From NCBI GenBank assembly GCA_003402315.1, contig QFXI01000021.1:1-64000 (forward strand): a stretch of DNA of 64,000 bases, in the 5' to 3' direction. Below are positions 34,969 to 64,000 of this stretch, one piece after another. Source of the DNA: Candidatus Nitrotoga sp. LAW (GTDB lineage Bacteria > Pseudomonadota > Gammaproteobacteria > Burkholderiales > Gallionellaceae). The position numbers and the translations under genes are program-made. How positions within the stretch are numbered: the first letter of the stretch is position 1; each line of letters begins with the position of its first letter. Under the pieces are notes generated by a model. That model saw nothing but the letters and a program-made list of their open reading frames with translations. It searched no databases and was not told the origin of the DNA.

Positions 34969-37548
34969 TTAAACCCGCTGCGCAAACTCCTCAAAATCTT
35001 GGACTGGCAGTGGCCGACTGAAGAAATAACCTTGGTAGGCATGGCAACCTATACTGGCTAAAAAATCGCGCTGCAGCTCAGTTTCAACCCCCTCAGCAAT
35101 CACCCCCATTCCAAGGCTCTGCGCCAACGCCACAATAGTCCGCGCGATGGCAGCGTCGTTGAGATCGGTGAGCACATCGCGAACAAATAACTTATCGATC
35201 TTCAATTGGTTCAACGGCAAGTGCCTCAAATAGGAAAGTGAAGAATAGCCAGTACCAAAATCGTCAAGCGAAAAACCTACCCCACTGACTTTCAACGCAA
35301 CCATCTTTTCAACGATGTCCCCAACATTGTCCACCAAAAGGCTTTCGGTCAGTTCCAGTTTAAGGCGGTTCGGGTTAATACCTGCCTGGCTGATTGTTGC
35401 CATTACTTTCCCCACAAAATCAGCTTCGAGGAACTGCTGAGCACTCACATTCACCGCTACCGTGAGGTGGGCCATTTCAGGCCGGATGGCCCATAGCGCA
35501 AGCTGGGCACAAGCAGTTTCCAGTACCCATTGGCCCAATGGCAGAATCAACCCTGTTTCTTCAGCCAGCGAAATGAATTCGGTAGGTGGCAACATACCGC
35601 GCTTAGGGTGTTGCCAACGTACCAACGCTTCCGCGCCCGTGGCACGGCCATCACTAGCCACCTGAGCCTGGTAGTAAAGCACAAATTGATTATCCTGAAT
35701 CGCTATACGCAGATCCATTTCCATGGCGGCACTCTCAACGACAATAGTCTGCATGGCTGGGTCAAAGAAGCGCAAACCATTGCGGCCCATTGCCTTTGAC
35801 TTGTACATAGCGAGATCAGCTTGCTTCAGCAAATCGTCAATAGATGTCGCATTGTCAATGAACAATGTGGCACCGATGCTCGCTGTACTATGGTGATGGA
35901 CACCTTCAAGCTGATAGGGTTGGCTGATGGCAGTGAGAATTTTTCTACCTATGGTTTCAGTCTGGGTGGCAGCATCCTCAATGGTGTCCGCCAATCCCTC
36001 CAAAACCACCACGAATTCGTCGCCGCCCATCCTCGCTACCGTATCACCCTCGCGTACACTAGTAAAAATACGTTGTGCGACTTGCTTGAGTAGCAGATCA
36101 CCCTTGTCATGGCCCGATGTATCGTTCAGCGTCTTGAATTGATCGAGATCGATGAACAACACCGCACCGAAAGTCCCGTTACGGTTGCTAGTGGCCATGG
36201 CGCGTTTCAGGTGATCCTGCAAGAGTCTGCGGTTGGGCAAATGGGTTAGCGGATCAAAGAAGGCCAGCTCCGTAATTTTGTCTTCCGCTAACTTGCGTTC
36301 CGTAATGTCAATGTGTGAAGCCACATAGTGGGTGACCACCCCTTTGCTGTTTTTGACAGTACTAATGGTAAGCAATTTTGGAAAAACCTTACCATCTTTA
36401 CGTCGATCCCAGATTTCTCCCTGCCACGCGCCAGTGTCCCGGATAGTCTTCCACATTGTGCGATAAAAATCAGCGTCATGGCGGCCAGAGTTAAGGATGC
36501 GCGGCTTTTTGCCAATGACCTCCTCTGCCGTATAGCCTGTACTCTCACAAAATGCCCGATTGACCCGCAGGATCACATTATCCGCATTGGTGATCATCAA
36601 GCTTTCCTGCGATTCAAAAGCGACAGCGGCAATGCGAAGCTCGGCCTCTGCATGCTTGCGCTCAATTTCATTGACATACAGCTTGAGCTGCATTTCGGAC
36701 AGGCTAGCAAGTACGCTGTTTTCCATACCAGGTTTAACCGCTATATTGGTAGAAAAATCCCCACTGCCGATCCTAACTAAATTACTGTGGATTTCGTCAG
36801 CAGTGCCACCCAGTATTGTGCGCAAGGAGATATAAGTTCGCCAGAGCAAGAAGATCACCCCAAGTGCGGTCACGATGAATATCAGCCGGAACGTTAAAGC
36901 AATATCTTCCGCATCATGGACTGCATCACGCGTTCTCTTTTCCATCAATACATGAACCTCATTGATGGGCTTCATAACCTTTGCCTTACCTTGGTAGTAC
37001 TCGTCACTATGTAGCATCAAATTGGCTCTCTCCCGGTTCACTTCCATGTCCGAGTGGGATGAATCAACCAATTTCATGGCTACGAATCCAATGGCAGCCA
37101 AACGATCCGAATTCACTTTAGCTTCCGTCAGTTTACCAAGTTCTTCGACAGTAAAACCAGACTGACGCATCAAGTCCAGCAAAGCAACGGTTTGTCCATT
37201 CTCTATAGGTGGAGACTGAATATTTGCCAGCACCATATCCCAATAACCATAAAAGTACCCATATGGCCGCGACATCTTGCCGTCACGGATATCCAATATT
37301 TGCTGATAATATTTCTTATAACGGGAATCACTGGTCACCACGAAGGCTCTGGCCATCCGTGTTAAGTCATCTGAACTCTGAAGTAACTGATCAGTCAACT
37401 GAAAAGAAATTAACCGTTGTTCATTTGCACGATCAATCTTTTTTTCGGTGATAACGTAGATACTGAAAAGAATAGAAAGCGCAATAAAAGAAAGCACTGT
37501 CAGCGCAATCTTCGAAGCTACATCCCTATCAGTTTTTTTTGAATTCAT
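34969..37548 (-). CDS. Membrane PAS-GGDEF-EAL c-di-GMP enzyme
   Basis: An 859-residue protein. It has an N-terminal membrane helix (VLSFIALSILFSIYVITE), a helical periplasmic sensor of about 200 residues, a second helix (FRLIFIVTALGVIFLLWRTYI), a PAS domain at about 300-425 (AVAFESQESLMITNADNVILRVN), a GGDEF domain with an intact MGGDEFVVVLE and an EAL domain with AEALVRW, VNVSAQQF, LELTES, DDFGTGYSSLSYLR and AEGVET. Both catalytic signatures look intact, so it could make and break c-di-GMP; usually one activity dominates. It precedes the chemotaxis cluster end and probably tunes motility against attachment. It is single, with gaps on both sides. Confidence 0.9.
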   Translation of the reverse strand: MNSKKTDRDVASKIALTVLSFIALSILFSIYVITEKKIDRANEQRLISFQLTDQLLQSSDDLTRMARAFVVTSDSRYKKYYQQILDIRDGKMSRPYGYFYGYWDMVLANIQSPPIENGQTVALLDLMRQSGFTVEELGKLTEAKVNSDRLAAIGFVAMKLVDSSHSDMEVNRERANLMLHSDEYYQGKAKVMKPINEVHVLMEKRTRDAVHDAEDIALTFRLIFIVTALGVIFLLWRTYISLRTILGGTADEIHSNLVRIGSGDFSTNIAVKPGMENSVLASLSEMQLKLYVNEIERKHAEAELRIAAVAFESQESLMITNADNVILRVNRAFCESTGYTAEEVIGKKPRILNSGRHDADFYRTMWKTIRDTGAWQGEIWDRRKDGKVFPKLLTISTVKNSKGVVTHYVASHIDITERKLAEDKITELAFFDPLTHLPNRRLLQDHLKRAMATSNRNGTFGAVLFIDLDQFKTLNDTSGHDKGDLLLKQVAQRIFTSVREGDTVARMGGDEFVVVLEGLADTIEDAATQTETIGRKILTAISQPYQLEGVHHHSTASIGATLFIDNATSIDDLLKQADLAMYKSKAMGRNGLRFFDPAMQTIVVESAAMEMDLRIAIQDNQFVLYYQAQVASDGRATGAEALVRWQHPKRGMLPPTEFISLAEETGLILPLGQWVLETACAQLALWAIRPEMAHLTVAVNVSAQQFLEADFVGKVMATISQAGINPNRLKLELTESLLVDNVGDIVEKMVALKVSGVGFSLDDFGTGYSSLSYLRHLPLNQLKIDKLFVRDVLTDLNDAAIARTIVALAQSLGMGVIAEGVETELQRDFLASIGCHAYQGYFFSRPLPVQDFEEFAQRV

Positions 37549-37691: not shown

Positions 37692-38759
37692 CTATTTCCC
37701 CAAGATAGCCCAATGCATTTCATGCAATGGCACTATTTTTTTTGCGGCGCCCATCTTAATGGCTTCCTTGGGCATGCCAAACACAACACAGGTCGCCTCA
37801 TCTTGTGCCACCGTAGGCGCACCTGCGTCCAGCATTTCTTTCAGGCCGCGCGCGCCATCGTCACCCATGCCCGTCATGATGATGCCAGTGGCATTTTTTC
37901 CCGCAAATTTGGCTACCGAGCGGAACAGTACGTCCACTGACGGGCGGTGGCGGTTCACCAGGGGCCCGTCCACTACTTCAACATGGTAATACGCACCGCT
38001 GCGCTTTAATAGCATGTGCTTGCCACCAGGCGCAATGAGGGCGAGTCCTGGCATAACGCGATCGTTATTCTTAGCCTCTCTCACTTCAATTTGGCACAGG
38101 CCATTGAGGCGTGAGGCAAATAAGGCAGTAAATTTTTCCGGCATATGCTGCACGATGACAATGCCGGGGCAAACTCGCGGTAGTGCTGTCAGCACGGCTT
38201 CCAGTGCCTGGGTGCCTCCGGTCGAGGTGCCGATGGCAACAATGCGTTCAGTCGTTTGCGCCATGGAGTGGGCAGTGGCTGCTGGGAGAATCACATCGGC
38301 ATTAAGTTTTTCCGCCACTTGCGGTAACGGTGTCGCCGCCCTGACCGTACGCCTGACGTTGGCCTGGGCTGCCGCCCTGACTGCACCTACTAGGTCGTTC
38401 GATGATTCCTGCAAAAAACTTTTCAGCCCAACTTTGGGCTTGGTAATAATTTCAACCGCTCCAGCGGCAAGCGCTTGTATGGTGGTTTCCGCGCCTTTTT
38501 CCGTGAGGGTAGAGCAGATCACCACCGGTGTGGGGTGGTCGGCCATTATTTTTTTGAGGAAGGTGATGCCGTCCATGCGCGGCATTTCCACGTCCAGCAC
38601 GATCACGTCCGGCCATTCGCGGGTCATTTTCTCCATGGCAAAAATAGGATCAGATGCCGCGCCAATGACTTGAATGTCCGGTTCCTGGTCCAATACCGCT
38701 TGTAATACTTGGCGCACAACAGCCGAGTCGTCAACCAATAAGACTTTAATTTTTTTCAT
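37692..38759 (-). CDS. cheB: Chemotaxis protein-glutamate methylesterase CheB
   Basis: A 355-residue response regulator that removes methyl groups from, and deamidates, chemoreceptors. The receiver has LLVDDS with Asp10-Asp11, Asp56 in [11 protein letters not shown] and the usual KP. The effector domain shows the catalytic triad: Ser in [12 protein letters not shown], His in [11 protein letters not shown] and Asp in [10 protein letters not shown]. The linker between the domains (about 130-170) is alanine-rich. The gene follows cheD with a 13-base gap and is last in the cheRDB trio, which together set adaptation of the receptors. Confidence 0.94.
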
Positions 38760-38772
38760 TTATGTTCTTTCA

Positions 38773-39300
38773 TCATGCCTGGATTACGCCCGGTTTGCGT
38801 ACCCAGACATTGCCGTTATTAATATCAAATACAATCTGCCGATGGCTGTTCCCTCCCAAGTCTTCGGCTGCCACAACGAATCCATGCAGTGCAACAAGCG
38901 AGCGGGCAGCAGTCATGTTTTTGCAGGAGATGTTCATGCATGCGTTGATCGTATCAATGCAGTTGTTACGGTCACATTGGTTCCTTTTTATGCCGGAAAA
39001 CATGTTGCCTGCCCCGAATAATTTCACGGTATATTCTGAGGGGTGTGTCTTGGCCGCACGAATTTCCCGCTCGAACATTTGCATGGCTTCTTTCGCATAA
39101 CGTCCATCGAGTGTCGTCGCCGAAGCGTTTTCCCGGGCAGGTAGCAGGTAGTGGCACATGCCGCCTATCAGTCTTGTTGGGTGCCACATGGTTATAGATA
39201 CACAGGATCCAAGAAGGGTACGGAGACGGGTGTTCATGTCACCAAAATAAAAGTCTCCTGGTTGTAAAAATACTTCAAAGACATGCTCAGGCTGCTTCAT
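38773..39300 (-). CDS. cheD: Chemoreceptor glutamine deamidase CheD
   Basis: A 175-residue deamidase acting on receptor glutamines, also a CheC partner in other bacteria. The catalytic Cys lies in LLGSCVSITMWHP and the His in GGMCHYLLPAR; the fold ends DLGGNSHRQIVFDINNGNVWVRK. The start ATG overlaps the cheR stop by four bases (ATGA), showing translational coupling. Location between cheR and cheB is the common betaproteobacterial order. Confidence 0.93.
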   Translation of the reverse strand: MKQPEHVFEVFLQPGDFYFGDMNTRLRTLLGSCVSITMWHPTRLIGGMCHYLLPARENASATTLDGRYAKEAMQMFEREIRAAKTHPSEYTVKLFGAGNMFSGIKRNQCDRNNCIDTINACMNISCKNMTAARSLVALHGFVVAAEDLGGNSHRQIVFDINNGNVWVRKPGVIQA

Positions 39301-40103
39301 GGCTTGCGGTATATCGATGGGGAAACCAACTTTAGGACATCGGTGATTCCATTGAGGCTTTCAGAGTGGCTGACAATAAAATATCCGCCCGGTTTTAACA
39401 TCGGCAACATGCGTGCTACAACTTGGCGTTTTGTATCCATGTCGAAGTAGATCATGACATTACGCAGGAAAATAACGTCAAATTCGCCCAGCTTCGGTAG
39501 CGTTGTATTCAGGTTGATTTGCATGAATTGCATGCGGCTGCGCAGGCTGCGCTCAATCATGAACGTGCCTTCTTGGGTACCCGTGCCCTTCAGGCAATGC
39601 TTGGAGAGTAGAGACTGCGGAATGTTGTGCGCCCGTTCCATGTCATAGTGGCCCGAGCGGGCTTTTTCGAGAACGCGGGTGCTGATGTCGGATGCGACGA
39701 TTTCCCAAGGGGTGCTAGGCAAGCCATCGGCAAGTGTCATGGCGAGGCTGTATGGTTCTTCGCCGGAGGAGCTGGCCGCACTCCATAAACGAAATGTTTT
39801 GCCCGCTTGCGCTTTGGGCAAAATCTGTCCTCGCAGAAAATCGAAGTGTTTGGGTTCGCGAAAAAAATAGGTCTCGTTGGTGGTAAGTAGGTCAAGCGCT
39901 ATCTGTAATTCCGCCGCTTCGGCATTCTGGGTAATCAGCCGGAAATAATCACCAAAGCTGGCCAAATCATGGTGCCTTAGCCGCTTGGACAGGCGCCCAG
40001 AGACCAGTGCTTTCTTTGCGTCGGAGAGATTAATCCCGGCAGTGCGATGTAACCAGGTGCGAAATTGGTTAAATTCATCATCTCTTAGCGTGGCGGTATG
40101 CAT
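39297..40103 (-). CDS. cheR: Chemotaxis protein methyltransferase CheR
   Basis: A 268-residue SAM-dependent methylase of receptor glutamates. The helical N-terminal domain (EFNQFRTWLHRTAGINLSDAKKALVSGRLSKRLR) is followed by LTTNETYFFREPKHF and the SAM-binding loop LWSAASSSGEEPYSLAM. The family usually reads WSAGCSTGEEPY; here the first Gly-Cys is replaced by Ala-Ser, still compatible with function. VIFLRNVMIYFD and GGYFIVSHSES are the remaining family motifs. It starts the cheR-cheD-cheB group about 170 bases after the PAS-MCP gene, so it may have its own promoter. Confidence 0.94.
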   Translation of the reverse strand: MHTATLRDDEFNQFRTWLHRTAGINLSDAKKALVSGRLSKRLRHHDLASFGDYFRLITQNAEAAELQIALDLLTTNETYFFREPKHFDFLRGQILPKAQAGKTFRLWSAASSSGEEPYSLAMTLADGLPSTPWEIVASDISTRVLEKARSGHYDMERAHNIPQSLLSKHCLKGTGTQEGTFMIERSLRSRMQFMQINLNTTLPKLGEFDVIFLRNVMIYFDMDTKRQVVARMLPMLKPGGYFIVSHSESLNGITDVLKLVSPSIYRKP

Positions 40104-40272: not shown

Positions 40273-41832
40273 TTAAGCAGCCCGATGTCCGGCAAAACTT
40301 CTATCTTTGAAAAACCCCATGACCTGTTGCAACAGATATGCCTGATTGCGAACCTCTTCTGAGGACGCCGCTAACTCCTCGGACGCCGAAGCATTTTGTT
40401 GCGTGCACTGGCTCATCTGCGACATGGCAGTATTGATCTGAGCCGCACCACTTGATTGTTCTTCCGAGGCGGCAGTAATCTCCTGCACTAAATCTGAGGT
40501 TTTGTTAATTGCCGGCACCATTTCATTCAACAACTTGCCTGCCACCTCGGCTTTCTGCACACTCCCGGATGCCAGTTCGTCAATTTCCTTCGCTGCAATC
40601 TGGCTACGCTCGGCCAGTTTGCGCACTTCAGCCGCTACCACGGCAAAGCCTTTTCCATGTTCGCCTGCCCGCGCAGCTTCAATGGCAGCGTTCAAAGCCA
40701 GCAAATTAGTCTGATAGGCAATATCGTCCACGATGCCAATTTTGCTCGCAATCTGTTTCATCGCAACCAATGTTTCTGTGACCGCTTTACCTCCATCGGT
40801 TGCTTGTTTGGATGCCTGCATGGCCATGCCATCGGTGACCTTGGCGTTCTCACTGTTCTGCGAAATAGAAGCGCTAATCTGCTCAACCGAAGCAGATGTT
40901 TCTTCCACGCTCGCCGCCTGTTCGCTTGACGACTGACTCAAGCTTTGCGCTGTCGCACTCATTTCTTCAGAGGCAGATGACAACACGGTAGTCGCACCGC
41001 GGATATCAGAAACAATGCTGGCGATATTTCCAGTCATGGTATTAATCGCATGCATCAGACGTCCAACCTCATTACGACTATCCGCCGATTTCAGCAATTG
41101 AACGTCCCCGGAAGCGATGACTTGGCAAGCACGCACCGCATCGTCAAGCGGACGCAACAGCTTGTAAAGCAGAGACCACCATATCAACCCTACAACTGCC
41201 AATGTGGCGGCAATAATCGTGCCCAGCAGCACTGTGGTGGCACCTCCCATCACTCCTTGGCCCATCTGAATCAACCGTCCCCCACCCAAGATAACAACCA
41301 AGCCGATAAAAGCACACGCAGCCGATATTTGAGTCTTGATGCTCATTTCACTGATAGCAGCCAGGCAGCCGCGCCAGCCGGTTGAAACAATCTGTCCTTC
41401 TTTGACTGTGATACCTTTCGCGGTTCCGTCACGAAACTGACGGTAAACTCGTTCCGCATTCTCCACCTGCGCGCGAGTTGGCTTTGTACGCAAGGACATG
41501 TATCCGGTAATTCGTCCGTTTTCATAAATAGGATTGGCGTTCGCTTCAATCCAGTAATAATCACCGTTCTTGCATCGATTTTTGACCATCCCACGCCACG
41601 GCTTTCCAGCTTTCAAGGTTTTCCACAAGTCTCCGAAAGCCGCTGGCGGCATATCTGGATGACGTACAATATTATGATGGGCACCCATTAAATCCTCCGC
41701 CGAAAATCCGCTGATCTCCATAAAAGTGCTGTTGACGTAAGTAATCTGTCCCTTGGTATCCGTTTTTGAAACGATGTATTGGCCATCCTTAAGATGACGT
41801 TCAACGTTTGTTACTGGCATGTTTACGCGCAT
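40273..41832 (-). CDS. Aer-like PAS chemoreceptor
   Basis: A 519-residue energy or redox taxis receptor. An N-terminal cytoplasmic PAS domain (about 18-120: [61 protein letters not shown]) resembles the FAD-binding PAS of Aer. It is followed by a membrane segment pair ([16 protein letters not shown] and [23 protein letters not shown]), HAMP and the MCP signalling hairpin with [34 protein letters not shown]. No C-terminal NWETF pentapeptide for CheR binding is present. It has no periplasmic ligand domain, as expected for Aer. GGGGAACGAC precedes the ATG. Confidence 0.9.
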
Positions 41833-42042: not shown

Positions 42043-42597
42043 TCAATTATTGCTGCCTGTACTTAATCCTTCAGCGCTTACATCCGTTCCATTTGCCCCT
42101 GACAGCATGGCCATTTCATCCACTGACAGTACGCGGTCAGCGTTGAGTATGATGACGAACTGGCCGTTCACTTTACCCATGCCGCTGATAAAATCAGCCC
42201 GGATCCTGGCGCCGAAACTCGGTGCAGGCTCAATTTCAGAGGCTGGTATTTCCAGCACTTCTGATACCGAGTCCACGACCACGCCGACATCCTGCTTTTC
42301 TTCATCCGTTTCGACTTCAATAATGACGATACAACTACGCCGCGTGACTTCGGATGCGGTACGGCCGAAGCGTGCCGACATGTCCACCACCGGTACCACT
42401 GCACCCCGCAGGTTGATCACGCCGCGAATGAAATCCGGCATCATGGGTACAGTAGTAAGATTGCCGTACTCGATGATTTCCTTGATGCCGAGGATGCTAA
42501 TGGCGAACATTTCGCCTCCAATCAGGAAGGTTAAATATTGCCCCTTTTCCTGCTGCGCGACAGCCGCATGAATTTCTTTTTTAACTAGTGCGCCCAT
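42043..42597 (-). CDS. cheW: Chemotaxis coupling protein CheW
   Basis: A 184-residue scaffold that links receptors to CheA. Family features: QYLTFLIGGEMFAISILGIKEIIEYGNLTTVPMMPDFIRGVINLRGAVVPVVDMSARFG, then DSVSEVLEIPASEIEPAPSFGARI and VNGQFVIILNADRVLS. It is slightly longer than E. coli CheW (167) because of short N- and C-terminal tails. It lies between the two receptor genes with a 12-base gap to the upstream MCP, so it is in the che operon. Confidence 0.94.
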   Translation of the reverse strand: MGALVKKEIHAAVAQQEKGQYLTFLIGGEMFAISILGIKEIIEYGNLTTVPMMPDFIRGVINLRGAVVPVVDMSARFGRTASEVTRRSCIVIIEVETDEEKQDVGVVVDSVSEVLEIPASEIEPAPSFGARIRADFISGMGKVNGQFVIILNADRVLSVDEMAMLSGANGTDVSAEGLSTGSNN

Positions 42598-42609: not shown

Positions 42610-44265
42610 TTAAAAACGGGCAAATTCAGCTTCATTCGGGATTCCAGCAAGGGCGTGCATGGCAGCTTTTGCCTTGGCCTTGGCCGGGCGCGCAGCTTGG
42701 ATATTATTAGATGCCGCGACCCTGTTCGCCGTAGCCTGGCGTTGTTGGCTACCAGCACCATTAGCTTCGACCTTAAAGAACCCCATTGTCTGTTGCAGTT
42801 GATCCGCCTGGCCGCTCATATCCTCTGCGGTTGCAGCCAATTCTTCGGATGCGGATGCATTTTGCTGGGTGATCTGGCTCAATTGACTCATCGCGGTATT
42901 AATCTGGCTCACACCGGCAGACTGCTCTTCCGATGCGGCGCTGATCTCTTGCACCAGGTCAGAGGTCTTGCTGATGGAAGGCACCATTTCGTCCAATAGC
43001 TTGCCGGCCTTCTCCGCCATCCCTACGCTGCTGGAGGCCAGCTCGCCAATTTCCTGCGCCGCTACCTGGCTGCGTTCTGCCAGTTTGCGCACCTCCGCCG
43101 CGACCACTGCGAAACCTTTGCCATGTTCACCCGCCCGGGCCGCTTCGATGGCAGCATTGAGCGCCAGCAAATTCGTCTGATAAGCAATGTCATCGATAAT
43201 GCTGATTTTCTTGGCAATTTCTTTCATGGCCGACACTGTTTGCTGCACTGACTCGCCACCCTCGGTTGCTTCCTTGGCTGCTTTGCTGGCCATACCGTCG
43301 GTAACCTTGGCATTTTCGGTGTTTTGATTGATGGAAGCGCTCATCTGCTCGATCGAGGCACTGGTTTCTTCCACGCTGGCTGCCTGCTCGCTAGTAGCTT
43401 GGCTCATGGATTGGGCGGTCGCGCTTACTTCTTCTGAAGCGCTGGAGAGGCTATCCGAGGCACTACGTACATCGGTGACAACCTGCGACAATTTACCCAC
43501 CATATTTTGCATGGCTGCAAGTAGTTGGCCGGTTTCATCTTTAGACGTCACTTCGATCTTTGTGGTCAGATCACCTTCGGCCAACCGGTTTGATACATTC
43601 ACGGCGATATTCAGCGGCTTGGTAATACTGCGCGTAACCCAAAAGCCAATACCTGCGGCCATTGCCAAGGCAATTCCTACCAGCGCCAACATCACGTTGC
43701 GTGCCATGTTATAGCTTTCGGCGGCTTCCTTAAGGGCTGTCTGCACTAACTCATTTTGAAAATCATACAATGTATTCAAGCTAGCTTGGTAAGCGGCCAA
43801 AATGGGACGTAGAACATTAGTCAAATACACCCGTGCTTCATCTTTCTTACCTTCATTAATAATACTAATCAAGCTTTTATAACCATCCACATATTTGATC
43901 CGGTTATCCATAGCACGCTGCAACAGCTCTTTTCCTTTCGGCAAGATAATTATCTTTTGCAATTTATCTACACTTTCTGCGATTTTATTTTTCGATTCAA
44001 GAATTGCCCCTTCTTGCTTCTTCATATCATCGCGACTATCAGTAAGCATCATATTTCTTAGCCCAATGGCAATGACAGTGGTTTCTTGCTTAATTCCCGT
44101 CACTATAGCCATTTTCGAATACCGATCATTAACTACAAGGTTCAGCATATCGTTTTGCTGCGCAAGCCGTGAAATAGCTAAGATCGCAACAATTATCAGC
44201 AAAATTACCACCACACCAAATCCCGATCCCAAACGCATACCTATTTTCATATTATTAAACATCAT
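42610..44265 (-). CDS. Methyl-accepting chemotaxis protein (4HB type)
   Basis: A 551-residue transmembrane receptor. The first membrane helix ([21 protein letters not shown]) is followed by a four-helix-bundle periplasmic sensor of about 150 residues (4HB_MCP type), the second helix ([24 protein letters not shown]), HAMP ([19 protein letters not shown]) and the signalling domain with [44 protein letters not shown]. The C-terminal 50 residues are Ala-rich and without the NWETF tether. TTTGGAGAATTA precedes two consecutive ATG codons. It stands between cheA and cheW in the operon. The ligand is unknown. Confidence 0.93.
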
Positions 44266-44320: not shown

Positions 44321-46510
44321 TTAATGAATCACTTGCCTGGTTGAAACATGCTGCGACTCTCGATTGACGGCCTGCTGAACCAACGATGGCACATCCAAAA
44401 TCAACGCCACTTCACCACTACCGAGTATGGTGGAGCCACTGATTCCGCGCAGGGTGCTGAATATCTTGCCTAGTGGTTTAATTACGGTCTGGAATTCGCC
44501 CATTAACTCATCTACCACCAGCCCCGCTTTTTGACCTGCACAACTCACCACGACAACATTTGCGCGACGCGCCCCGCTACCCTCAACTTCAAAATGCTCA
44601 CGCAACATGACAAAAGGCAATACTTCGCCGCGAAGATTAAGATAGCTGCGATCGCCTGTCGCTTGGCGGTCATTTTCAGTCAACTCGATACATTCCTGCA
44701 CCATGTCCAGCGGCACTATATAGCTGGATTTTCCGACGCCTACCAAAAAGCCGTCGATAATTGCGAGGGTAAGCGGCAATCGGATACTGACAGTCGTGCC
44801 TTGACCTACCGCGCTGTCTAGACCCACAGTGCCGCGCAGTGCAGTGATGTTACGTTTAACTACATCCATCCCTACGCCTCGACCTGAAAGATTGGTTATA
44901 GCTTCCGCGGTAGAGAAACCTGCCTCAAAAATCATGTTGTAAATTTCCTGGTCAGGCGGCGTTACGTTAGGGGCGATTAGGCCGCGATCCCTGGCCTTTT
45001 GCAGAATTCGATCTCGATTAAGGCCACCTCCATCATCGACAATCTCGATTACGATGCTGCCCGAATCATGATAGGCATTAAGCCGCAGCGTGCCTTTGGC
45101 TGATTTACCTGTTGCCTGCCGAATTGCTGCCGACTCAATGCCGTGATCCATGGCGTTACGCACCAGATGCATCAGTGGATCTCCAATCTTTTCCACAACA
45201 GTCTTATCCAGCTCGGTATCAGCACCGGTAATTACCAGCTCAATATCCTTGCCGAGTTCGCGGCCTACATCACGTACCACGCGCTGAAAACGGTTGAAGG
45301 TTTCACCAATTGGAACCATGCGCAGGCGCAACGCGCCATCGCGGATTTCCTCCACCAGTCCCGACATTACCGAAGCGGCTTCCTGTAACGAGTTATCGCT
45401 CACACGCTGGGCAAGTAAACTGACACCGGCTCCAGCGATGACCAACTCACCCACCATATTGATCAATTCGTCCAGTTTGTCAGCCTGTACACGAATGTAG
45501 CGGCTTTCCTTGTTTTTACTATCCTTGGATTGGGTTTGCTTATCCAAAGCAGCTTGCACGACCTCATGTTCAACCGAACGTTGCTCCACCAAAATTTCGC
45601 CCAAAGGTGTTGTCGAGCCATCAGGACGGGCGCTGGTTTGTTGTTCGCTTAACCCAGATTCAAGCTCTTGTTGGGTAAGCGCCCCTGTAGCCACTAAAAT
45701 TTCACCCAAGCGTGTTTCACTTTCTGGCAACGAGCGAATTAATTCAATGTATTCCGTGAGTTTGCTGTGCGGTGGCAAAATATGAACAAGGCTGCCTTCC
45801 CGCGCAAATTCAAATACTCCAGCAATAGTCGCCTTATCGGCATCTGATTTAAAATCAATTTCAAAACCGAGGTAGCACGATTCCGCGTCCATTTCATCGG
45901 CAAGCGGCAGGGCATCGAACATGGTAGTGATAGAAACAATTTCTCCGAGAGTAGATAAATAGCGAAGGAAAGAAAGTGGATCCATCCCATCTCTCATTAC
46001 GTTCTGGCCGAAGCGCAAGGAAATATGCCAATTGTCCGTCTCTACCAAACCACCCCCGCTGAATTGCAATGGAGTTTCTTTCTCCACTTGAACAGCATGG
46101 CTCACCTCGGAATTATCTTGATAAGCCTGCAGCCGAATACGCAAACCACTTTCGCGGGCAATAGCATCTGTATCCAATTGCCCGCCTTGAGCGGCGACTA
46201 CGTTAACCAAGTGCAGCATGTGATCGCCACTTTCGAGCAATACTGCAATCAGATTGGCCTCTATAACAACGTCTCCATCGCGTACCCGGTCCAGCACGTC
46301 TTCAACAATATGGGTAAAGCTGACAATAGGATCCAATCCGAACAAGCCGGCTGATCCCTTGATGGTATGCGCGGCGCGGAATATGGCGCCGATCGTATCG
46401 GCATCATTCGGATCAGCTTCGAGCCGCAACAGGGCGTCCTCCATATCTTGCAGAAGCTCGCGTGCTTCGGCGATGTAAGTTTGCAGTGCTTGATCAAGAT
46501 CTAAACTCAT
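44321..46510 (-). CDS. cheA: Chemotaxis histidine kinase CheA with MshEN-like insert
   Basis: A 729-residue kinase. P1 holds the phosphorylated His48 (FRAAHTIKGSAG). A P2-like region at about 160-250 (WHISLRFGQNVMRDGMDPLSFLRYL) is followed by an unusual segment at 267-325: RLGEILVATGAL...L...Q (267-290) and PLGEILVEQ...Q (302-325). The first copy fits the c-di-GMP-binding MshEN motif RLGxxLVxxGxLx4Lx3LxxQ; the second lacks the Arg and Gly. P3 dimerisation, P4 ATP-binding (NAMDHGIE, DDGGG, GRGVGMDVVKRNI) and P5 CheW-like coupling domains follow. It phosphorylates CheY and CheB. It starts five bases after the STAS gene stop. Confidence 0.94.
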   Translation of the reverse strand: MSLDLDQALQTYIAEARELLQDMEDALLRLEADPNDADTIGAIFRAAHTIKGSAGLFGLDPIVSFTHIVEDVLDRVRDGDVVIEANLIAVLLESGDHMLHLVNVVAAQGGQLDTDAIARESGLRIRLQAYQDNSEVSHAVQVEKETPLQFSGGGLVETDNWHISLRFGQNVMRDGMDPLSFLRYLSTLGEIVSITTMFDALPLADEMDAESCYLGFEIDFKSDADKATIAGVFEFAREGSLVHILPPHSKLTEYIELIRSLPESETRLGEILVATGALTQQELESGLSEQQTSARPDGSTTPLGEILVEQRSVEHEVVQAALDKQTQSKDSKNKESRYIRVQADKLDELINMVGELVIAGAGVSLLAQRVSDNSLQEAASVMSGLVEEIRDGALRLRMVPIGETFNRFQRVVRDVGRELGKDIELVITGADTELDKTVVEKIGDPLMHLVRNAMDHGIESAAIRQATGKSAKGTLRLNAYHDSGSIVIEIVDDGGGLNRDRILQKARDRGLIAPNVTPPDQEIYNMIFEAGFSTAEAITNLSGRGVGMDVVKRNITALRGTVGLDSAVGQGTTVSIRLPLTLAIIDGFLVGVGKSSYIVPLDMVQECIELTENDRQATGDRSYLNLRGEVLPFVMLREHFEVEGSGARRANVVVVSCAGQKAGLVVDELMGEFQTVIKPLGKIFSTLRGISGSTILGSGEVALILDVPSLVQQAVNRESQHVSTRQVIH

Positions 46511-46515
46511 TTTTA

Positions 46516-46845
46516 TTATCCTTTTTTCTCATTGCAAGAAAGCACCACCGGATCGCCAAAATAAGGCGCCAAGTTGCACATATCCAGCACATCAAGTACC
46601 GCACGGCTGTGCCCGGTTAATCGCAGGTTGGTTCCGTGTTTTTCGGCTTCTCGCTTAGCCAAAATAAGGATTTGCAAGCCAGCGCTATCCATTTCACTGA
46701 CCTCTGACAAATCAATTTCTCGCTCACACGGTTGAGCCATATGAGCCATCAGTTCATTCTTCATGTCGGCGGCAGTGTAGATAGTCATGTCGCCCTCAAT
46801 ATGCAGTAATGACTGTCCGTTTTTATTTGTTACGCTGATAGGCAT
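46516..46845 (-). CDS. STAS domain protein in che operon
   Basis: A 109-residue single STAS-domain protein, related to anti-anti-sigma factors. The fold is seen in GDMTIYTAADMKNELMAHM, the phosphorylatable serine region IDLSEVSEMDSAGLQILILAKREAEKHG and LRLTGHSRAVLDVLDMCNLAPYFGDP. In the SpoIIAA group the serine is the target of a kinase; here it lies between cheY and cheA, an order seen in many betaproteobacterial che clusters, where its exact job is not settled. No matching serine kinase is in the window. CTCCTTATTT reversed gives AAGGAGA before its ATG. Confidence 0.85.
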   Translation of the reverse strand: MPISVTNKNGQSLLHIEGDMTIYTAADMKNELMAHMAQPCEREIDLSEVSEMDSAGLQILILAKREAEKHGTNLRLTGHSRAVLDVLDMCNLAPYFGDPVVLSCNEKKG

Positions 46846-46878: not shown

Positions 46879-47247
46879 CTATGGCAATATCAATTTGGCC
46901 ACCGCGGTAAGCATTTGCGCTGGCTGGAATGGTTTAACCACCCACGCCTTGGCGCCAGCTGCCTGGCCTTCCTGTTTTTTCCCTTCCTGAGACTCCGTGG
47001 TGAGCATGATGATCGGCGTAAATTTGTAATTAGCCATTTTTTTAACCTCTTTCACGAAGGTAATCCCATCCATGTTAGGCATGTTCACATCGCTGATAAT
47101 GAGGTGGATTTTTTGCCCATTAAGTTTTGTCAGCGCATCCTTACCGTCACATCCTTCAATCACGTCGTAACCTGCTCCTTTTAATGCAATGCTGACGACC
47201 TGCCTTACGCTTGCGGAATCGTCAACTATCAATATTGCCTTGCCCAT
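46879..47247 (-). CDS. cheY: CheY-like response regulator
   Basis: A 122-residue single receiver domain with Asp9-Asp10, phosphorylated Asp53 (IISDVNMPNMDG), Thr83 and Lys105 (VVKPFQP). Single-domain receivers in this place, between a receptor and STAS-cheA, are usually the CheY or a second CheY of the cluster; E. coli-like CheY residues for FliM binding (KPF) are compatible. No cheZ phosphatase lies in the che cluster. GGAGGGAGT precedes the ATG. Gaps of 8 bases to the transducer gene and 33 bases to the STAS gene place it in the che operon. Confidence 0.88.
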   Translation of the reverse strand: MGKAILIVDDSASVRQVVSIALKGAGYDVIEGCDGKDALTKLNGQKIHLIISDVNMPNMDGITFVKEVKKMANYKFTPIIMLTTESQEGKKQEGQAAGAKAWVVKPFQPAQMLTAVAKLILP

Positions 47248-47255
47248 ACTCCCTC

Positions 47256-48485
47256 CTAAAAAAATGTGATTTCTTGTTTAGTGGCTACGCCGGCTTGGCT
47301 CCCGCGATGAGTGTGTACTTGTTCCTGAGTAGCGTAGAGCGCCTCCATTTCCGCCAACCATGCTTTAATATCGAGATGTTTAACCGGGATGGATGCCGCC
47401 TTATCCTGCTTATATTGCTGCAAGTGCTGATGAAGCTTCTCCATATTGTTGCGCACATGAACCAATATCTGGCTGACACGATCCTGAAATTGAAGTGATA
47501 CCAGCACGTCAGATAACTCATCACGAATACCCGCACTTTCCTGTTGCAATAATTCGGCTGAATCTGACAAAGTCGAAGTGACTTTAGTAAAGCTTTCCAG
47601 AACTTGCTGAATAATCAATTCAGAACTTGCAATAGATTTGAAATCATGTTCGGAAGAGCTTTCAGCAATCTTGAATACGCTGGCGATAGCGTTACTGATA
47701 ATATCCACCGTACCTGACATTTTTTTACCGGTTTCACTGGAAAGACTGGATAATTTACGCACTTCGTCCGCCACCACAGCAAACCCGCGCCCTGCTTCTC
47801 CGGCACGCGCAGCTTCGATTGCGGCATTTAAAGCAAGTAAATTTGTTTGGGCGGCAATCTCCGCTACTTTGACAGCCATGGCTCTCAGTTCACCCGTGTA
47901 ATCATTGAGGCCTCTAACCTGTTCCAACATATCGTTACGGCTATGTTGCGACTCCCTGAGGGAGTCGATAACGCTTTTCAGTGACGACTCGCTTTGTGTC
48001 ATTACCGCCACTGCCCCACCCTCTGTATTACCTGCCAAGTTACCAGCGGCACTTTGCGAAGCACGCACCGATGCCTCCAGTTTTGCGTTAATGCCGACAA
48101 AACGATTGGCCAATTCCATGATGGCTGTTTCGGTCTGGTTACGGGTAGTTTCAACCTGCCTGGACCAAATAGGCACCACCTCCGTACAAACATCTTCCAA
48201 ACCGCCCCCATCAGCATTCGCAAGTTCAATGTCAAATCTTGCTTTGGCATTGTCCAACTCCTGTGCTACGGCCAGCTTGAGCAAAGCGCGATGGCGGCGA
48301 ACGCCCCACTCTCCGACAGCAATCGATATTCCAATAAGGACTACAGCGGACACAATGTTTACCCAGCCAAATCCCCCTAGAGTAAGCAGCAACAAAGCGC
48401 CGGTAATACCAAGCCCCAAAGCAATACTCCTACAAAATGTTGCAGTCGCTTTATGTGCTGTCGGATTAATTTTTTTTGCTGCCAT
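47256..48485 (-). CDS. Short methyl-accepting transducer without periplasmic domain
   Basis: A 409-residue MCP-like protein. Two close membrane helices ([19 protein letters not shown] and [19 protein letters not shown]) form a hairpin with no periplasmic sensor. A cytoplasmic helical part leads to the signalling tip [41 protein letters not shown]. The C-terminal helices (about 300-370) are unlike the usual methylation helices, and the end [12 protein letters not shown] is polar. ATG 48485 follows GGGGGG by seven bases; a GTG 15 bases earlier is less likely. It is the first gene of the che operon, directly behind a sigma-28-type promoter, and could sense membrane or cytoplasmic state. Confidence 0.86.
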
Positions 48486-48542
48486 AATGTCGCCCCCCAC
48501 TTTCTTTTCAGCTTTTATTTAAAATTGAAATCGCCAAAATAT

Positions 48543-61143: not shown

Positions 61144-62337
61144 TTATTGTTGCTTCATGCGATATTGCCATTCATCCATCCATCCGGGTAGCGCAGCTGC
61201 CGGCATGGGCTGACCTATGAAATACCCTTGTGCAATATGACACTGTGTTGTACGCAGGAACGCCCAGTCATCGGCATTTTCCACGCCTTCCGCCACTGCT
61301 TCCATACCAAGCTGGAGTGCAAGGTTGAGACTACTCTTAAAGATTGCTCGCAGCCTAGCATCGTGCCAGGCATGATGAGTGAACATTTTGGCGATTTTAA
61401 GTTCATCAAAGGGAAGGTCATGCAACTGAACAAATGAAGAATGTCCAGTTCCAAAATCATCAATGGAAAGACGAAATTTTCTCAGGTGCAAACGGGCACA
61501 TACATCAAGTACGGTTGAAAGATTCTGTATTAACCTGCCTTCAGTTATTTCTAGCATTAACGACTGTGGCTGCAAGCCTTTAGCCTCTGCAGCAACGAAA
61601 TCAGCAAAACTTACATCAGCAAGATCATCCATTGATACATTGACTGCGACCTGCAAGGAAAACCCCTCTTCCTGCCAAACTTTACTCTGTGATAGTGCCT
61701 CTTTCAACACTACACGTGTCAGTTTGTTGATCTGACCAGATGTCTCTGCCACAGGAATAAATAAATCAGGAAGAACCAACCCGTCCAAAGGATGTTGCCA
61801 GCGTACCAAAGTCTCGACACCGATGATTTTACCTGTCGCCACAGCAACCTTGGGTTGATAATAATTAATCAGCTCGCCTTTGACAATCGCAGCATCCACA
61901 GTCTCAGCATCATAGGGTATGCTTGCTGCGAACGGCTTCGAAACAATGTGTGGTGACCACTTGTCCAACACGGCAGAGAGCATTGCCAGGGTAGGCGGTT
62001 TCCGTATCGTGCCCAATACAGAAAGCCGGTGCGTGTGTATAAGTTTATTGGTCGCTTCTAGCATACGTTCGCCTTCGCCGCTCACCAGGATCAGGGCGCC
62101 GATAAAACATCGTTCCGCTAGGTGACGCACAAATTCAATGCCGTCCATGCTTGGCATATTGAGGTCAAGTAATATGACATCCGGGATACAGCCTGGTATT
62201 TCATAAGCTGCCAGCGCTGCATCACCTCTTTCAAAACACGATACACGGCCATAGCCCAATTTAGCAAGCGTGCGACCGAGTAACTTGAGCGTGAAAGGAT
62301 CGTCGTCAAGTACGAAGATATTTATTAATTTGTTCAT
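61144..62337 (-). CDS. Response regulator with EAL domain (RocR-like)
   Basis: A 397-residue protein: receiver at 1-125 (IFVLDDDPFTLKLL, LLDLNMPSMDGIEF, IRKP) and EAL phosphodiesterase at about 150-390. Catalytic residues seen are E in GVETLVRW, N in VAVNVSM, E in LEITEG, DD in IDDFGTGHSSF, K in ELKIAK and E in AEGVEN. The usual KID reads KIA here. The layout equals RocR of Pseudomonas, which breaks c-di-GMP when its receiver is phosphorylated. Its start shares one base with the stop of the hybrid kinase gene (TAATG), so the kinase is its probable partner. Confidence 0.9.
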   Translation of the reverse strand: MNKLINIFVLDDDPFTLKLLGRTLAKLGYGRVSCFERGDAALAAYEIPGCIPDVILLDLNMPSMDGIEFVRHLAERCFIGALILVSGEGERMLEATNKLIHTHRLSVLGTIRKPPTLAMLSAVLDKWSPHIVSKPFAASIPYDAETVDAAIVKGELINYYQPKVAVATGKIIGVETLVRWQHPLDGLVLPDLFIPVAETSGQINKLTRVVLKEALSQSKVWQEEGFSLQVAVNVSMDDLADVSFADFVAAEAKGLQPQSLMLEITEGRLIQNLSTVLDVCARLHLRKFRLSIDDFGTGHSSFVQLHDLPFDELKIAKMFTHHAWHDARLRAIFKSSLNLALQLGMEAVAEGVENADDWAFLRTTQCHIAQGYFIGQPMPAAALPGWMDEWQYRMKQQ

Positions 62338-64000
62338 TATGCATTCCTCTTATTACTTTCTGGTTCTAACACCTCATAAGTCCATGTTGCCAAATAATTT
62401 TCCACCACGGCCATTTCTTCATTGAAATGACTCATAAGCTCGGCTAAGGCAGCGCTTTCTCCCATATCGTTGCAAGTATGCTCGATTTGTTCGCACAGCT
62501 CGCCAAGTTTGTACGCTCCGATGCTACGTGCCGAAGATTTCATCTTGTGTGCCGCTGTACCCACCTCGACGAGCTGCCCAGCGGCATAGTCTGTATTGAG
62601 CCCAGTCGCAATACTTACTGTCATTACACTAAAATCCTGCAATAACTCATTAATCACAACCGTATCATTGCCAACTAAATCCTGTAGCACCCGCACATCT
62701 ATCGGTCGCTCTATTGCTTCTTTGACCTGAGAAGCAATAGAGCATCGTTTTGCCAAAGGCATCCATTTTTCCAGCATCATTTTGAGATTAGTAAGCCGCA
62801 CGGGCTTGGAAAGGTAATCATCCATCCCTGCGGCCTTGCAATATTTCTCTTCATCTTTTAGGGCATTGGCGGTGAGCGCGATAATCGGTGTATGGCTGAT
62901 GCCTGTTTTTTCTTCGGCACGTATGGCTGCGGTGAGTTCATAGCCGTCCATATGGGGCATATGTACATCGGTAAGCAATAGCGCATACTCGCCAGTCTTC
63001 CAGCGGTTCAATGCCTCGCGGCCATCACCCGACACTTCGGATGCGAACCCGAGGAGGGCAAGTTGCCGACGGATTACCTGCTGGTTGATTTCGTTATCTT
63101 CGACTACAAGTATTAGCTTTCCTTGATGTACTCCTTCATCACGCGACGGCGCTTCGAAGGCTTCGCAGGGAAGCCCGACTAATTTAGGCGACGTTTCATC
63201 TTTGGCGCGCCCGGCAGCGATTGCCACCGCCTGCAAAATAATCCGCCGCGTGAGTAAATTGCTGTCAACCCATACCAGATCATCTGCTACTTGACGGGGG
63301 CGACGGCGATTGCCCCGACCAATAAGGAACAAACGTATGTCAATCTGTTTATACAAACAGGATATTGCACGCAACTCGTTCAACAACGATGGTGCGCCTA
63401 AGGTATCAAGTATCCATATCCAAATGGGATCAGTTGGTACATCCGCATGCTGCGCTGCATCAATATCTGCCACACGTTGAACTTGTGCACCGGCATAGGT
63501 GAGTTGTGCCGCGATGTCGGCGGTCAATCCAGTATCATGCCCAATCAGCAGGCACGGTAACCCGTCCACCGGTGAATGCACCATTTCCGATTGTGGCACG
63601 ACTTCAAACGGCAAATACACGGTGAAGGTGCTGCCTACACCCAATTCACTTTGGACGCTGATCTCACCGGCCATCATGTGAACAAGTTGCCTCGATATGG
63701 CTAATCCCAATCCAGTTCCGCCAAATAGTCGCTTAGTGGAGGAATCAGCCTGTTCGAAAGGTGTAAATAGGCGAGACTGAGTAGCCTCATCCATGCCGAT
63801 GCCATTGTCACGGACGGTGAATTCCAACCAAACCCGACCCGCTTCACGTCTGGATATCCGAACGCGCACCATTACTTGACCAAGGCGGTTTTGCACGTTT
63901 GAAAATTTCAGGGCATTGTTGATCAAGTTCGTTAGTATCTGGTGCAGACGCAATGCATCCCCTAGAACATTAGGGATCTCTGGATCAACAAACAGGGTCA
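62337..64000 (-). CDS. Hybrid sensor histidine kinase, C-terminal part
   Basis: The frame is open to the window edge (last full codon at 63998), so sensor and H box lie outside. Visible order: HATPase_c (LRLHQILTNLINNALKFSN, DNGIGMD, GGTGLGLAISRQLVHMM), a degenerate receiver-like domain (LLIGHDTGLTADIAAQLTYAGAQVQRV), a true receiver (LVVEDNEINQQVIRRQL, LTDVHMPHMDGYEL, SKPV) and a C-terminal HPt domain with His in AAHKMKSSARSIGA. This is a BarA/TorS-like phosphorelay. The HPt should pass phosphate to the REC-EAL protein encoded one base on. The TTG at 63953 is inside the domain and not a real start. Confidence 0.9.
   Translation of the reverse strand, partial: TLFVDPEIPNVLGDALRLHQILTNLINNALKFSNVQNRLGQVMVRVRISRREAGRVWLEFTVRDNGIGMDEATQSRLFTPFEQADSSTKRLFGGTGLGLAISRQLVHMMAGEISVQSELGVGSTFTVYLPFEVVPQSEMVHSPVDGLPCLLIGHDTGLTADIAAQLTYAGAQVQRVADIDAAQHADVPTDPIWIWILDTLGAPSLLNELRAISCLYKQIDIRLFLIGRGNRRRPRQVADDLVWVDSNLLTRRIILQAVAIAAGRAKDETSPKLVGLPCEAFEAPSRDEGVHQGKLILVVEDNEINQQVIRRQLALLGFASEVSGDGREALNRWKTGEYALLLTDVHMPHMDGYELTAAIRAEEKTGISHTPIIALTANALKDEEKYCKAAGMDDYLSKPVRLTNLKMMLEKWMPLAKRCSIASQVKEAIERPIDVRVLQDLVGNDTVVINELLQDFSVMTVSIATGLNTDYAAGQLVEVGTAAHKMKSSARSIGAYKLGELCEQIEHTCNDMGESAALAELMSHFNEEMAVVENYLATWTYEVLEPESNKRNA

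Follow-up and report, generated by a model that had tools for sequence, protein, structure and literature searches.

The second messenger cyclic di-GMP (c-di-GMP) is known to act on chemotaxis chiefly by way of PilZ adaptors and motor brakes. In Pseudomonas, the MapZ-CheR system brings c-di-GMP into chemotaxis via a PilZ domain acting on CheR and not via an MshEN domain in the kinase. The PilZ-bearing chemoreceptor Cbp1 of Azorhizobium (PMC6454048) shares such a c-di-GMP input to chemotaxis, with PilZ in the receptor rather than MshEN in the kinase. In the MshEN domain of the V. cholerae pilus ATPase MshE (PDB 5htl; PMC5013675), two 24-residue motifs form a four-helix bundle; a Leu triad, a stacked Arg and the backbone amides of Gly3 and the residue after it hold each guanine, while the ribose and phosphate are contacted by Gln24. 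MshEN in CheA is already on record, as one sentence of Wang et al. 2016 names this chemotaxis kinase among the proteins with which MshEN is associated (PMC5013675); no experimental study of an MshEN-bearing CheA was found in the open-access literature. The CheA of Candidatus Nitrotoga sp. LAW, encoded on a 64,000-nucleotide stretch of DNA (contig QFXI01000021.1, positions 1 to 64,000; hereafter the window), belongs to the same architecture class. Residues 267-336 of this protein form an MshEN domain, modelled as a four-helix bundle between the P2-like domain and P3. The findings as a whole are, in our judgement, better explained by a c-di-GMP receptor domain with binding coupled to the kinase than otherwise, an explanation that builds on family identity, the predicted fold, the retained contact residues and the fixed linkage length, and in which binding and kinase control are the predicted parts. 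Added here to the published record are the arguments on both sides at the level of residues, the distribution of the domain, examples of CheAs that lack it and a fixed distance to P3. The layout of the protein is as follows.

44321..46510, minus strand: CheA, 729 amino acids, with P1, P2-like, MshEN, P3, P4 and P5 domains (open reading frame and Pfam)
46127..46510, minus strand: P1/Hpt domain, residues 1-128, with His48 (Pfam Hpt, 8-92)
45773..46033, minus strand: P2-like alpha/beta domain, residues 160-246 (AlphaFold2 strands and helices)
45731..45760, minus strand: extra helix ahead of the bundle, residues 251-260 (AlphaFold2)
45641..45712, minus strand: MshEN motif I, residues 267-290, helices a1-a2; contacts R267, L268, G269, L283, L287 and Q290 as in the consensus
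45608..45640, minus strand: spacer between the motifs, residues 291-301, 11 residues (5-20 in relatives)
45536..45607, minus strand: MshEN motif II, residues 302-325, helices a3-a4; L303, G304, L322 and Q325 as in the consensus, P302, V318 and R311 divergent
45485..45535, minus strand: connector from a4 to P3, residues 326-342 (AlphaFold2: a4 at 315-336, next helix from 343)
45326..45502, minus strand: P3 dimerisation domain, residues 337-395 (Pfam H-kinase_dim)
44768..45181, minus strand: P4 ATPase domain, residues 444-581 (Pfam HATPase_c)
44372..44752, minus strand: P5 CheW-like domain, residues 587-713 (Pfam)

The initial annotation had placed an MshEN-like motif pair between the P2-like and kinase domains of this CheA. 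The pair was confirmed with exact coordinates (45712-45536, minus strand; residues 267-325). Motif I (RLGEILVATGALTQQELESGLSEQ, residues 267-290) matches the published relaxed 24-residue pattern and carries the consensus at all six contact positions (i.e. R1, L2, G3, L17, L21 and Q24), identical to those of MshE. Motif II (PLGEILVEQRSVEHEVVQAALDKQ, residues 302-325), which had been described as a degenerate copy, is a second 24-residue repeat that retains four of the six contacts (Leu2, Gly3, Leu21 and Gln24, as in MshE) and has Pro for Arg and Val for Leu at the other two. This repeat fails the relaxed pattern twice, with Arg in place of Gly/Ala/Ser at position 10 and Ser in place of a hydrophobic residue at position 11, i.e. 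at the turn and core and outside the contact positions. The annotation had also correctly noted a spacer longer than that of MshE (11 residues as compared to 5; PMC5013675) and the loss from motif II of Arg, replaced by P302, and of the turn Gly, replaced by R311. The relaxed pattern was a search aid, hand-checked by Wang et al. (PMC5013675); neither a fit to this pattern nor a 5-residue spacer was treated here as defining MshEN, the spacer being 7 residues in the binder GSPII-C. Unlike MshE, no sign of an MshEN_C subdomain was observed before P3 in CheA, and the domain is fused to a chemotaxis kinase rather than a pilus ATPase.

Profile searches of the segment against MshEN models gave significant matches. 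The curated NCBIfam model NF053729 (MshE-related c-di-GMP-binding domains) scored 39.4 bits with whole CheA (E 3.8e-10, cut-off 38) and 46.9 bits with the 82-amino-acid segment alone. An alignment (A4) was built with 61 of 80 named-genome loci (see below) at <93% identity, L083 having been left out beforehand; together with the CheA under study, all 62 segments matched NF053729 at E 0.01 or better, and their joint profile recovered PilF (1.1e-18), PilB (1.4e-8 and 5.6e-8) and MshE (2.5e-5) from the PDB. The best-scoring PDB sequence match to the CheA segment was GSPII-C of T. thermophilus PilF (the third domain of 6f8l), which shares the Pro at motif II position 1 (P335 in PilF) and has a spacer of 7 residues, as read from the alignment, as compared to 11 in CheA. 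Unlike CheA, GSPII-C retains the motif II turn Gly, has a third motif and belongs to a type IV pilus ATPase. Of 20000 shuffled versions of CheA, 29 contained the relaxed pattern one or more times and 708 a looser core pattern fitting both motifs, while none contained a pair 29-45 apart with either pattern. Pfam-A gave no MshEN match in the segment, the sole hit being a DUF4388 match below threshold (E 0.006) in the region of motif I (window 45500-45745), from which DUF4388 proteins may themselves hold an MshEN-like stretch.

AlphaFold2 predicted a four-helix bundle for the segment in five models with a mean pLDDT (predicted local distance difference test) from 68 to 86, the best of them at 85.8. 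Comparison with known structures, as had been proposed with the initial annotation, identified an MshEN-like fold. In VIA-align the eight best entries were all MshEN/GSPII domains (Z 7.4-9.2, the next entry scoring 3.7), five of them c-di-GMP-bound MshE or PilF-GSPIIB, although for helical bundles a Z under about 13 may mean little. The match to MshE (5htl) had a Z of 9.2 and 2.2 Å over 59 residues, and those to PilF-GSPIIB a Z of 8.7-9.1 and 1.5-1.6 Å over 57-59 residues. Because Z alone is weak for such bundles, the fold assignment leans on the gap in Z and the agreement with the sequence profile. Foldseek placed MshEN-type entries in its top three rows at E values of 0.47-2.1, with none below 0.47. 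The full-length CheA model had a mean pLDDT of 84.2 and a predicted template modelling score of 0.51, leaving domain placement unsure.

The remainder of the protein has the features of a CheA kinase. Pfam matches comprised Hpt, H-kinase_dim, HATPase_c and CheW, giving P1, P3, P4 and P5, and P3-P5 aligned to solved CheA chains (e.g. 3ja6, Z 31.0). In a 59-row alignment (A5), drawing on 58 of the 80 named-genome loci, the catalytic residues H48 (in P1), N452, D492, G494, G545 and G547 were invariant. The Pfam P2 model did not match the P2-like domain; P1 and P2 together aligned to 2lp4 with a Z of 20.0 and a root-mean-square deviation of 12.9, which gives little information on P2 alone.

The main new structural point is a fixed distance between the bundle and P3. 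Relatives were obtained from three samples, and a survey of CheA proteins for the same insert, another of the checks suggested at the outset, found it in many. Among 61 genomes (own genome included), 24 near-full-length homologues were recovered (L003-L026), with the motif pair in 22, from 22 genomes, and absent from L025 and L026; a further near-full-length homologue (G057, contig 369) was left out of this set. Among 299 genomes of the phylum, 29 loci besides the own locus comprised eight of the long form, 19 of a related form (L046-L064) and two without the domain (L044 and L045). A scan of named genomes gave 157 confirmed matches, of which the best 80 were kept; all counts out of 80 refer to these. 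A profile-found set of 22 omits the near-identical same-genus L004-L011, the pairless L025, L026, L044 and L045, and L046-L064. From Q325 to R340, at the start of P3, there are 14 residues in 79 of the 80 relatives and in 20 of the profile-found 22; the stretch ahead of motif I (residues 246 to 267) is likewise constant (20 residues in 79 of 80). The spacer spans 5-20 residues across relatives with both motifs, and this loop is the sole part of the segment free in length. For the related-form loci, the distance corresponding to Q325-R340 is 19 in 16 of 19. The full model has helix a4 at 315-336 and the first P3 helix beginning at 343. The fixed distance suggests coupling of MshEN to P3, behind which a mechanical path from ligand to P3 may lie.

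The motif pair was present in all 80 CheAs from the named-genome scan, and MshEN-bearing CheA occurs in many Beta- and Gammaproteobacteria. Genera among these 80 include Ca. Nitrotoga, Gallionella, Thiomonas, Azoarcus, Zoogloea, Rugamonas, Methylomonas, Methylobacter and Pseudomonas, together with one metagenome-assembled genome labelled Nitrospirae; the nearest named genomes among the matches listed were Candidatus Nitrotoga, which reached up to 100% across the segment. Motif I positions 3, 6, 10, 13, 16, 17, 21 and 24 were invariant in 80 of 80, with Arg at position 1 in 69. For motif II, positions 3, 20, 23 and 24 were invariant, and Val17 (74/80), Leu21 (76/80), Pro1 (63/80) and Gly10 (25/80) occurred at varying frequencies. 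The profile-found 22 gave a similar pattern: Gly3 was retained by all in both motifs and Gln24 by 21 in motif I and 22 in motif II, with positions 3, 6, 10, 17 and 21 of motif I and 3, 20 and 24 of motif II invariant. A shorter version was observed in CheAs of many other families in the phylum (L047-L064 except L055), with the second repeat 22-25 residues after the first (17 loci). In these proteins motif I loses its Gln, or the spacer is about one residue, and motif II keeps Gln24. The spacing is near normal in L046 and L055, and NF053729 matched all 19 loci L046-L064 at E 0.01 or better.

A quick maximum-likelihood tree of the kinase core (75 rows, midpoint root) used 26 of the 80 named-genome loci; L034 and L060, both fragments, and L113, a wrongly cut piece from upstream, were dropped. 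Long-form CheAs fell in one group (SH-aLRT, an approximate likelihood ratio test, 98), together with the domain-less L025, L026, L044 and L045; 17 of 18 related-form rows made up a neighbouring group (98), the branch uniting both groups had a support of 89, and L055 stood apart from both on a very long branch. The three domain states required 5 changes on the tree as compared to a mean of 25.5 for shuffled labels; as the profiles used to collect the rows themselves included MshEN, domain-less CheAs are under-sampled. L044 and L045 sit firmly beside L088 of Pseudomonas fluvialis, which retains the domain, and the places of L025 and L026 depend on weaker forks. The simplest reading, which falls short of proof, is that the module was lost two or three times with the kinase kept. 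Its absence from four loci of the same group indicates that the kinase does not need MshEN. L044 and L045, from one family and with the whole bundle gone, are useful natural controls against their P. fluvialis neighbour.

Binding of c-di-GMP by the CheA domain is probable given the residues retained. In MshE, G11I abolishes binding and L10A and L58A cost 36-fold and 10-fold, respectively (PMC5013675); in PilF-GSPIIB, binding was lost when both Gln were changed to Glu (PMC11731258). CheA keeps the equivalents of these mutated residues (L268, G269, L322, Q290 and Q325). Departures at position 1 are also seen in binders. PilF GSPII-B, a 6-nM binder, has Lys and Leu there, and GSPII-C, assigned a dissociation constant of 324-460 nM from a second binding event, has Pro in its motif II (PMC11731258); the position-10 Gly of MshE is described as a turn Gly making no ligand contact (PMC5013675). 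The reservations entered in the initial annotation over the long spacer and the lost Arg and Gly are thus partly eased, by the variable spacer, the Pro1 of a binder and the turn position of the lost Gly, and binding itself stays a prediction.

By analogy with MshE, one c-di-GMP would most likely span both motifs, with one guanine in a half-site of R267, L283, L287, L303 and Q290 and the other in a half-site of P302, L268, V318, L322 and Q325. Helix a4 would grip the ligand through Q325 and runs into P3 at a fixed distance. The ligand would stiffen or tilt a4, altering the reach of P1 and P2 to P4 and the passage of receptor signals through P3 to the kinase, and chemotaxis output would track the cellular c-di-GMP level. 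Control of the kinase by c-di-GMP is slightly favoured; that output would be damped at high c-di-GMP is a guess as to sign, with only a small lean towards damping. We hold more tentatively, as a possibility near even balance, that the whole clade of CheAs (Beta-/Gammaproteobacteria and the one Nitrospirae-labelled genome) is gated directly by c-di-GMP, with the ligand-gripping helix of MshEN length-locked to the P3 dimer helices and the module apparently lost two or three times while the kinase was kept. If true, the chemotaxis kinase would itself be a second-messenger receptor that bypasses PilZ adaptors, and a single molecule could adjust the gain for every chemoreceptor signal together. Such gating is directly testable, as the domain is conserved, small and separable, a Gln-pair change abolishes binding in a relative, and natural cases without the domain exist.

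Several observations weigh against a receptor function, among them the spread of models and weak scores in the fold prediction, the dispensability of the module and the low counts of c-di-GMP enzymes beside the relatives (see below). Motif II is divergent at positions 1, 10, 11 and 17 (Pro1, Arg10, Ser11 and Val17). The relaxed pattern was matched in the 80 relatives by motif I in 28, motif II in 13 and both in 4, and in the profile-found 22 by 11, 7 and 4, respectively. Non-contact positions (L6, G10, T13 and E16 of motif I; A20 and K23 of motif II) are also present in 80 of 80, so that part of the motif conservation may be structural, and conservation at the end of motif II is partly built in, as this stretch lay within one of the two patterns used for the search. 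Among ten sequences of the genus, the motifs are no more constant than P3 or the P2-like domain: 2 of 24 sites vary in each motif, none a contact, as compared to 3/11 in the spacer, 17/31 in the P1-P2 linker, 5/64 in P3 and 8/87 in the P2-like domain. Wang et al. (PMC5013675) cite earlier work in which changes at Arg9, Asp12 and Gln32 cost at most fivefold, making Gln conservation weaker evidence than is apparent. PilF GSPII-A has one nearly perfect motif and does not bind, and a restored consensus was insufficient in the whole domain (PMC12002112).

These points bear on the strongest rival, namely that the domain is a diverged MshEN bundle that has lost c-di-GMP binding and acts between P2 and P3 as a spacer or as a module for protein docking. 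In XpsE, changes at key positions led to loss of binding (PMC5013675), and PilB-PilZ complexes (7lkm, 7lkn and 7lko; the N-domain of Xanthomonas PilB with PilZ) were among the structural matches. The XpsE changes, however, include G11, L29, G40, L54, L58 and Q61 (PMC5013675), whereas the CheA relatives of different genera keep Gly3, Gln24 and the Leu positions of the two motifs or change them conservatively; also against this rival, the genome has only two Pfam PilZ matches, which lie in frames of 841 and 261 amino acids. As both motifs fit the relaxed pattern in just 4 of 80 relatives, binding, kinase control, the receptor reading and clade-wide gating become less probable and the non-binding rival more so, and we still regard the latter as unlikely. 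Another cyclic dinucleotide or other ligand in place of c-di-GMP is improbable: the V. cholerae MshEN binds cyclic GMP-AMP, but more weakly than c-di-GMP, and was reported to have no detectable binding of cyclic di-AMP (PMC5013675), and the genome has 19 GGDEF and 15 EAL matches from a search that covered c-di-GMP enzymes, no search for other cyclic-dinucleotide synthases having been made. A chance repeat unrelated to MshEN, for which the barely sufficient whole-protein NF053729 score and the weak Foldseek E values could be cited, was rejected as close to excluded given the E value of the NF053729 match, the MshEN/GSPII identity of the best profile and VIA matches, the shuffles and the recurrence of the pair across genera.

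The genomic setting of this CheA is a chemotaxis and flagellar cluster. The cheA gene lies among genes for Che proteins and flagellar genes in the order flgK, flgL-like, a methyl-accepting chemotaxis protein (MCP)-type gene, cheY, STAS, cheA, MCP, cheW, MCP, cheR, cheD, cheB and PAS-GGDEF-EAL. Both c-di-GMP enzymes that had been read from the window, a GGDEF-EAL and a REC-EAL protein, were found (34969-37548 and 61144-62337). The features, each assigned with Pfam, are as follows.

47256..48500, minus strand: MCP-signal-domain protein beside flgL-like and flgK genes
46879..47247, minus strand: CheY-type receiver protein
46516..46845, minus strand: STAS-domain protein, upstream of cheA
42610..44265, minus strand: methyl-accepting chemotaxis protein
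42043..42597, minus strand: CheW
40273..41832, minus strand: PAS-HAMP methyl-accepting chemotaxis protein
39297..40103, minus strand: CheR
38773..39300, minus strand: CheD
37692..38759, minus strand: CheB
34969..37548, minus strand: PAS-GGDEF-EAL protein after cheB (GGDEF and EALVR motifs)
61144..62337, minus strand: REC-EAL protein

The PAS-GGDEF-EAL protein is a possible local source or sink of c-di-GMP. Among the 80 named loci, the same MCP-type protein was matched in 72, CheY in 75, an EAL-type neighbour in 13, a GGDEF-type neighbour in 5 and any neighbour in 79, in a survey whose queries were the window's own domains, in which many loci end early and open reading frames <120 amino acids were ignored, so that STAS is undercounted. 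Enrichment of c-di-GMP enzymes beside the relatives was considered and is not convincing on these counts. In five of five Rugamonas loci (L128, L129, L133, L134 and L135), an EAL-type match follows cheB within the cluster, like the PAS-GGDEF-EAL gene of the window.

The genome contains, besides the GGDEF and EAL matches, two PilZ and two NF053729 matches, making CheA one of few receptor candidates recognised by the models used. The other NF053729 match (L001; G000:C25:39280-39447, minus strand) has two motifs with an 8-residue spacer and sits close to the beginning of a frame of about 590 amino acids, presumably an ATPase of a secretion system or pilus. The same genome has a second CheA homologue (G000:C16:1079-2242, minus strand; a 635-amino-acid open frame), which is without an NF053729 match. 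In the window at 61144-63953, the REC-EAL gene adjoins one whose product combines HATPase, receiver and Hpt domains, and the two are perhaps a phosphorelay-controlled phosphodiesterase pair.

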